Part shown: positions 27,175 to 33,106 of the stretch, one piece after another
Layout: every line of letters begins with the position of its first letter
Position numbering within the stretch: the first letter of the stretch is position 1
Assembly (NCBI RefSeq): GCF_003337245.1
Contig: NZ_QPJE01000022.1
Span: 1-34,028, forward strand
Source: Halanaerobium sp. MA284_MarDTE_T2
GTDB lineage: Bacteria; Bacillota; Halanaerobiia; Halanaerobiales; Halanaerobiaceae
Direction: 5' to 3'
DNA length: 34,028 bases
Position numbers and translations under genes: made by a program
The notes under the pieces: generated by a model
Seen by the model: only the letters and a program-made list of their open reading frames with translations
Databases searched by the model: none
Told to the model about the DNA's origin: nothing

Positions 27175-27383
27175 TATTGAAAATAGATCTTGACTGTTTC
27201 CCCTGTATGATGAGGCAGCTTATTGAGGCATCTGAAATGGCTGGAGCTGATAAACATACAACACGGGAAATTATAAACCATTATGCAGATATGATTAAAG
27301 ATATACCGGAAGATGCTAAAGCACCTGAAGTTAGTGATAAACTGCAGAAGTTTTTAAAGAAAAAGACAGGTGATAGAAGTTAT

Positions 27384-27426
27384 AGTCTGCTAGCAAACCT
27401 CGTGGGCTTGCCCCGAGGAGGGTCAA
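27384..27426 (+). mobile_element. 43-bp solo end (scar) of an IS200/IS605-type element
   Basis: The insert consists of 14 bases of unique sequence (AGTCTGCTAGCAAA) and the same hairpin and TCAA end found at 93-121. TTAT lies directly to its left, close to the TTAC target of IS608. Unlike the complete right end, the bases before the hairpin are CAAA, not GAAT. This suggests a left-end guide joined to a right-end hairpin, that is, deletion between the two hairpins. Confidence 0.75.
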
Positions 27427-27428
27427 AA
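27398..27428 (+). repeat. 31-bp IS-end repeat, copy 2
   Basis: Identical to 93-123 over 31 bases, in the same orientation. Together the pair could serve as a short recombination substrate. Confidence 0.95.
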
Positions 27429-28113
27429 TGACCCCTATTACAGCCTGAAGCAGAAAAATATTGAGATGGCAGAAAAGCTGCTGCCAGTAGTGAACAAAGA
27501 GATTGAATCTGCTGCTGATCCACTTAAAGCAGCACTGCTGATGGCGGCAATGGGGAATTCCATAGACGCCGGAGTTGGTCTAAATATTGATATTGAAGAA
27601 AATATAGAGAGGGCTTTAGAGCACGGTTTTGCCAGAAGTGACTACAGCCTTTTTAGAGAAAAATTGGATAAGGCAGAAAATCTGCTGATAATCGCTGACA
27701 ATAGTGGTGAGGCAGTTTTCGATAAAATTCTGATAAAATATCTTAAAGAACATGTAGATAAAATCATTTATGCTGTAAGAGGTGTTCCGGTTTTAAACGA
27801 TATTACTGAAAGTGAAGCAGAACAGATAGGTATTGGCAGCAGAGCAGAGGTTGTTTCAAGTGGTGCTGAAGGGCCGGGGCTGGTTCTGGAAACTGCTGAT
27901 CCGGATTTTGTGGATATATTTAATCAGGCTGATCTTGTTTTAAGCAAAGGACAGGGTAATCTGGAAGGCCTTTCTGAAGTGGAGAGAGATATTTTCTTTC
28001 TGCTTAAGGCTAAATGCCGTATGATTGCCGGGTTTCTCAATACTGAGTTAAATAATTTTGTTTTTGTTTTGAATCGCTGAAGTTTTAACTTTTAATAATC
28101 CAGCAGCTGTTTT

Positions 28114-32974: not shown

Positions 32975-33106
32975 TTAAACATTCTTTTGATTTTGGATAT
33001 ACTTTTGCATAGTTTCAGAAGTTACACTTTCAGCTGTCCCGTCATAATATCCTCTACCCCACAAACCACTACCCCAAAGGCAGTTTCGTATCAGACTTCG
33101 AAAATG
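32975..33106 (-). pseudogene. tnpA: C-terminal relic of an IS200/IS605 TnpA transposase
   Basis: Minus-strand frame: LIRNCLWGSGLWGRGYYDGT, then AESVTSETMQKYIQNQKNV and stop. This is the C-terminus of Y1 transposases: the LWG.GLWGRGYY strand and the catalytic tyrosine helix KYIQNQ (Tyr codon 32999-33001, Gln four residues later). The metal-binding HUH part and everything N-terminal are missing, and the frame is closed by a stop at 33146-33148, so it is inactive. Behind it (32955-32900, minus strand) TATTCATCCACTAAGACAAG and TTTTCT recall the end of such elements. Confidence 0.75.

Follow-up and report, generated by a model that had tools for sequence, protein, structure and literature searches.

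A 52-bp unit composed of both ends of a TnpB-only element interrupts a DUF89 gene in Halanaerobium and is probably the product of a core deletion

Background

In the haloarchaeon Haloquadratum walsbyi, the 1500-bp TnpB-only element ISHwa23 is shortened to 52 bp via a 19-bp direct repeat at its palindromes (PMC3119063). This form was named a terminal-only PATE in 2011, with the question of whether it can be mobilised, and HqIRS46 of H. walsbyi also shows core deletions and terminal-only PATEs (PMC3119063). In the bacterial family studied here, Halanaerobium hydrogeniformans carries a PATE-like sequence of 271 nt that is likewise an ends-only IS605 derivative, but with two ends (the right one whole), part of tnpB and dissimilar hairpins; a 52-bp single-hairpin form is not described in that report (PMC7290912). 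Free-standing IS605 stem-loops on Borrelia plasmids are also isolated end hairpins without a transposase gene, but each is a single left or right hairpin, not a fusion of the two ends that retains both outer edges (PMC2775950). No report of 52-bp single-hairpin forms in bacteria was found in the literature searched, which consisted mostly of papers available without subscription.

A solo LTR is what remains of a retrotransposon when its similar ends recombine and the core is lost together with one of them. The original prediction for the locus described here invoked the same comparison and knew no common name for such solo ends in IS200/IS605 elements, although the 2011 account of terminal-only PATEs formed by core deletion in an archaeon supplies one. 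The solo unit that breaks a DUF89/ARMT1-like gene of Halanaerobium sp. MA284_MarDTE_T2 is of the same kind, in another domain of life. Unlike a solo LTR, it has a 20-bp hairpin repeat in place of long LTRs, derives from a DNA element moved as a single strand and lacks a target duplication.

Results and discussion

Position and edges of the insert

The window analysed is the whole of contig 22 (34,028 nucleotides) of a 2.47-Mb draft genome, here coded G000. It opens, at 1-121 on the forward strand, with a full-length copy of the element described below, of which only the right end lies on this side of the contig edge; this end has a guide GAAT (89-92), a hairpin (93-113) and the tail AGGGTCAA (114-121). 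As the original prediction stated, the 31-bp right-end sequence of position 93 recurs inside a DUF89 (PF01937) gene, the insert ends on the right with TCAA, its hairpin is preceded by GCAAA where the right end at 93 has GGAAT, and it shifts the reading frame of the gene.

The left edge lies elsewhere than was predicted. An insert of 43 bp starting at 27384 and flanked by TTAT (near TTAC) had been proposed, whereas full-length left ends, DUF89 orthologues and a natural empty site all place the edge at 27375, making a 52-bp insert (27375-27426, forward strand) 3' of the target pentanucleotide GTGAT (27370-27374). In each of the 20 full-length left ends found, 14 of them in this genome and 6 in two relatives, GTGAT is directly followed by AGA; therefore AGAAGTTAT is part of the element and TTAT is not a flank. 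GTGAT also marks the natural empty site, seen on comparing a full copy in H. congolense (G001; left flank L207, right flank L116) with H. polyolivorans (G004; L082). There the element lies between CTGGCTGTGAT on the left and TTATTCTGAA on the right, such that GTGAT borders its left edge and TCAA is its last sequence before the flank. Target duplication is absent both at this site and when the DUF89 gene is set against its orthologues.

The 5' part of the broken gene (27177-27374, forward strand) was delimited by orthologue alignment and matches PF01937 with E 1.5e-5 over 69 aa; the 3' part (27427-28080, forward strand) is out of frame with it and matches PF01937 with E 2e-46 (27466-28080). Orthologues at the joint, a comparison proposed with the original prediction, are intact and free of the insert, and they fit 52 bp rather than 43: seven intact family orthologues align gap-free once 52 bp are removed. 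Exact removal of 43 bp does restore the frame, as claimed, but leaves three surplus residues, RSY. Frame by itself cannot separate the two lengths because both equal 1 modulo 3.

Composition of the unit and its parent element

From GTGAT onwards, the first 48 nt are identical to the left end of the multi-copy element of this genome, and the final 29 nt to its right end. The left-end arm AGAAGTTATAGTCTGCTAGCAAA (27375-27397) is identical in the 14 full left ends of this genome, and its last bases, CAAA, occupy the place of the left guide. It is followed by the subterminal hairpin CCTCGTGGGCTTGCCCCGAGG (27398-27418), which DNA folding shows with a bulged T, and by the right-end tail AGGGTCAA (27419-27426) with the right cleavage site TCAA; this tail equals positions 114-121 and is identical in other right ends of the same element type. 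The left-end and right-end stretches overlap in CCTCGTGGGCTTGCCCCGAG, the 20 bp common to both end hairpins, and the joint is located somewhere inside this zone (27398-27417). The last hairpin base is G, as in right ends, where left ends of this genome have A (GAGG of the right-end type versus GAGA), and the hairpin as a whole is identical to that of the right end of the element. The outer edges, AGAAG on the left and GTCAA on the right, form no terminal inverted repeats, and 52 bp are too short to encode a transposase. In full copies AGTCTGCTAGCAAA sits directly before the left hairpin, in agreement with the original prediction. The 48-nt and 29-nt end matches, together with two units in this genome and 21 more in relatives, exclude a chance origin.

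The parent is a TnpB-only IS200/IS605 element of the IS1341 type, with tnpB beginning approximately 150 bp after the left end (L031). A complete element of the parent type, 1388 bp long (G012:C77:5831-7222), encodes a single TnpB (373 aa as searched; NCBIfam NF038281, E 4.9e-157) with no other long reading frame on that strand, and has a GTGAT-flanked left end and a right end made of GAAT, hairpin and AGGGTCAA. Subterminal hairpins, a guide 5' of the hairpin and a fixed target 5' of the left end are all present in the parent element. On the right it shares the guide GAAT and the cleavage site TCAA with IS608 (PMC5934647). The GTGAT target resembles the ISDra2 target and TAM, TTGAT (PMC8612924), and by this likeness TnpB would use GTGAT as its TAM as well.

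IS605-type copies with the same hairpin but the tail AGCGTCAA also exist, one of them linked to part of a tnpA (G012:C144). The only TnpA sequence found in this assembly is a 56-aa relic of a Y1 transposase (PF01797, E 1.6e-5) at 32987-33103 of the window, on the reverse strand; active copies may be hidden in unassembled repeats. A related but distinct TnpB element of the same genome (L210; G000:C32:17202-17573) has a 380-aa frame, the hairpin CCACGTAGGCTTGCCCCGTGG and the tail AGCGTCAA. Assignment of the unit to a known RNA family was rejected, as the window has no Rfam match.

Solo units in related genomes

The original prediction called for a search for further short inserts, and such inserts, of about 51 bp, were found. 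Pattern searches of 14 Halanaerobiaceae genomes gave 23 solo units of 51-55 bp in six of them (two in G000, six each in G001 and G004, one in G005, five in G006 and three in G012) and 20 full left ends in three (14 in G000, five in G001 and one in G012), all of these counts being lower bounds since the patterns require GCAAACC and miss decayed copies. GTGAT precedes 20/20 full left ends and 20/23 solo units; the other three follow TTGAT or ATGAT. A search of viral contigs for more left ends gave none.

Several solo units in G000, G001 and G012 have the same left arm as the full copies in their own genome. In G004 and G006 the patterns detect neither full left ends nor right ends of the GAAT type, and the TnpB genes of these two genomes lie in loci that lack this hairpin. 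The G004 solo copies are nearly identical and lie at unrelated sites. An AGAG-type left arm is present in 16/23 solo units and 0/20 full copies (Fisher P = 9e-7, an optimistic value as relatedness is uncorrected); within G001 alone it is present in five of six solo units and none of five full copies (P = 0.015, also optimistic given related copies).

The junctions differ among solo units, as expected from separate deletions between two ends. L086 and L095 keep the left-end-type AAAG and have only TCAA from the right end, and L095 also retains GCCGCGAGG, the hairpin arm of the G012 left end. In L205 the joint is misaligned and GAGG is doubled; the left arm and hairpin of this unit are those of the full copies of its own genome, G001.

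Other arrangements of the ends were also observed. At 1501-1640 of L207 (G001:C49:11250-12991) the left end occurs twice in tandem, with left arm, hairpin and AAAGAGAAGACGG repeated, and this is another product of recombination between element ends. On the reverse strand of L097, near 1544-1567, a solo unit with a 12-bp duplication of the right tail (GAGGAGGATCAA then GAGGAGGGTCAA) lies immediately upstream of a start codon. In two species, full copies have right ends that adjoin a common flank, ATACCAATGAGAAGAGATC (L123, G009:C51; L135, G001:C58), which reflects either an old shared insertion or a transferred stretch.

Origin of the unit in the DUF89 gene

The insert is best explained, and with good probability, as the remnant of a full element that collapsed by deletion between direct repeats. 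A TnpB-only element of about 1.4 kb would have inserted 3' of GTGAT in the DUF89 gene; with the hairpin of the left end repeated at the right end in the same orientation, the two ends would provide a 20-bp direct repeat. Replication slippage or single-strand annealing between the two repeat copies would delete tnpB and one hairpin, and the product would consist of left arm, one hairpin and right tail, 52 bp in all. A repeat of 20 bp offers little length for RecA-dependent recombination, which makes single-strand annealing, or slippage on a single strand that forms hairpins, likelier. It may be speculated that TnpA assists the deletion by bridging both ends. The collapse between similar hairpins put forward in the original prediction thus fits the composition (end, hairpin, end), but not with the length and left flank given there.

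The remnant would keep the left guide and both cleavage sites but would have lost the right guide GAAT, so that precise excision is no longer expected under the IS608 model and the gene stays frameshifted; the 52-bp remnant has probably lost its mobility. Against this reading, a full copy at the DUF89 site was not encountered in any strain, and we infer from structure that the collapse occurred in place; a search for an orthologous site occupied by a full copy in one genome and a solo unit in another found none. The unit in the window is a perfect fusion of local ends and is therefore probably young.

Likeness to the terminal-only PATEs of H. walsbyi (PMC3119063) extends to the IS605-type or TnpB-only parent, the lack of terminal inverted repeats and of target duplication, near-terminal palindromes that form 19- to 22-bp direct repeats, a length of 52 bp after deletion and doubt about mobility of the short form. 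The unit in the window has an IS605-type palindrome, and its structure suggests that the core and one palindrome were deleted, which are the features by which terminal-only PATEs are recognised. The Halanaerobiaceae units differ in having a bacterial host, a GTGAT target and several junction points, and in lacking a strain pair with full and collapsed forms.

A clearly less probable reading is that the unit of 51-52 bp, with its single hairpin, is mobile in its own right as a non-autonomous element, with TnpA acting in trans, and that the DUF89 copy arrived as such. It would account for solo units in G004 and G006 without matching full copies, for the near-identical G004 copies at unrelated sites and for a left-end subtype that is found in 16/23 solo units and is absent from full copies. 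The H. walsbyi study considered this too, on the grounds that each of the six strain-specific ISHwa23 insertions reported there is terminal-only (PMC3119063). Such a unit would be among the shortest transposable units known, moving with one hairpin and one guide, contrary to the two-ended IS608 model, which needs two hairpins and two guides (PMC5934647); the solo units have one hairpin and no right guide GAAT. Mobility of the unit is also at odds with the varied junctions, and with the perfect match between the solo unit in the window and the local full left end. The solo-only genomes and the subtype split may reflect either an extinct full subfamily, whose full copies were excised or lost while un-excisable solo units stayed, or movement of the solo units; these genomes make the mobility of terminal-only forms directly testable.

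An assembly artefact, in which a full copy occupies the site and the assembler jumped from left to right hairpin, is very improbable. The assembly is a draft in which contigs break at full copies, and the shared stretch is a perfect 20-mer, but contigs enter full copies by approximately 90-120 bp before breaking, indicating that the assembler was working with overlaps exceeding the 52-bp unit, and the same units are contig-internal in five other assemblies, including a 2.3-Mb genome in a single contig. The idea that the unit is no transposon remnant but a REP-like repeat, spread by a domesticated Y1 transposase of the RAYT type, can practically be dismissed: the hairpin is single and dispersed and Y1 proteins of RAYT-like length (180-198 aa) occur in most of these genomes, but both arms equal IS ends over their full length, no such hairpin lies within 1.5 kb of the Y1 genes examined with flanks, those of RAYT-like length among them, except in one IS605-type copy, and REP copy numbers are usually far higher (PMC2817692).

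On the preferred reading of core deletion, a process described earlier from a haloarchaeon, TnpB elements are commonly reduced to a 52-bp scar in a bacterial family as well. Scars of this kind can keep a gene disrupted and are apt to escape annotation. TnpB is thought to re-cut donor joints (TAM plus flank), so restoring the element (PMC8612924). As the solo unit puts 52 bp between the TAM and the flank matched by the guide RNA, the site should be immune to re-homing by TnpB, and it is proposed that the scar may shield it in this way.

Insertions near start codons and within reading frames

GTGAT lies in the complement of the anti-Shine-Dalgarno sequence, and the right tail GAGGAGGG resembles a Shine-Dalgarno sequence. 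Targeting of Shine-Dalgarno sites was considered and rejected, as 4/24 insertions compared with 16/282 background GTGAT sites (P = 0.06) is a weak enrichment. In L078, L083, L099 and L209, insertions of this element family lie inside Shine-Dalgarno-like sites (for example, GAGGTGAT and GGGGTGAT); here the right tail GAGGAGGGTCAA, at Shine-Dalgarno distance from ATG, could replace the lost site.

Two solo units of 51 bp read open as 17 codons (RVKVCSQTSWACPEEGQ, with one substitution in L075). Both are on the reverse strand, one inside a gene of L068 (5142-6083, GGDEF-EAL-like) and the other inside a gene of L075 (4071-4469, Mrp-like), the genes being named by eye. An in-frame insertion of 17 codons was rejected for both, since their reading frames are cut short upstream and they are probably pseudogenes.
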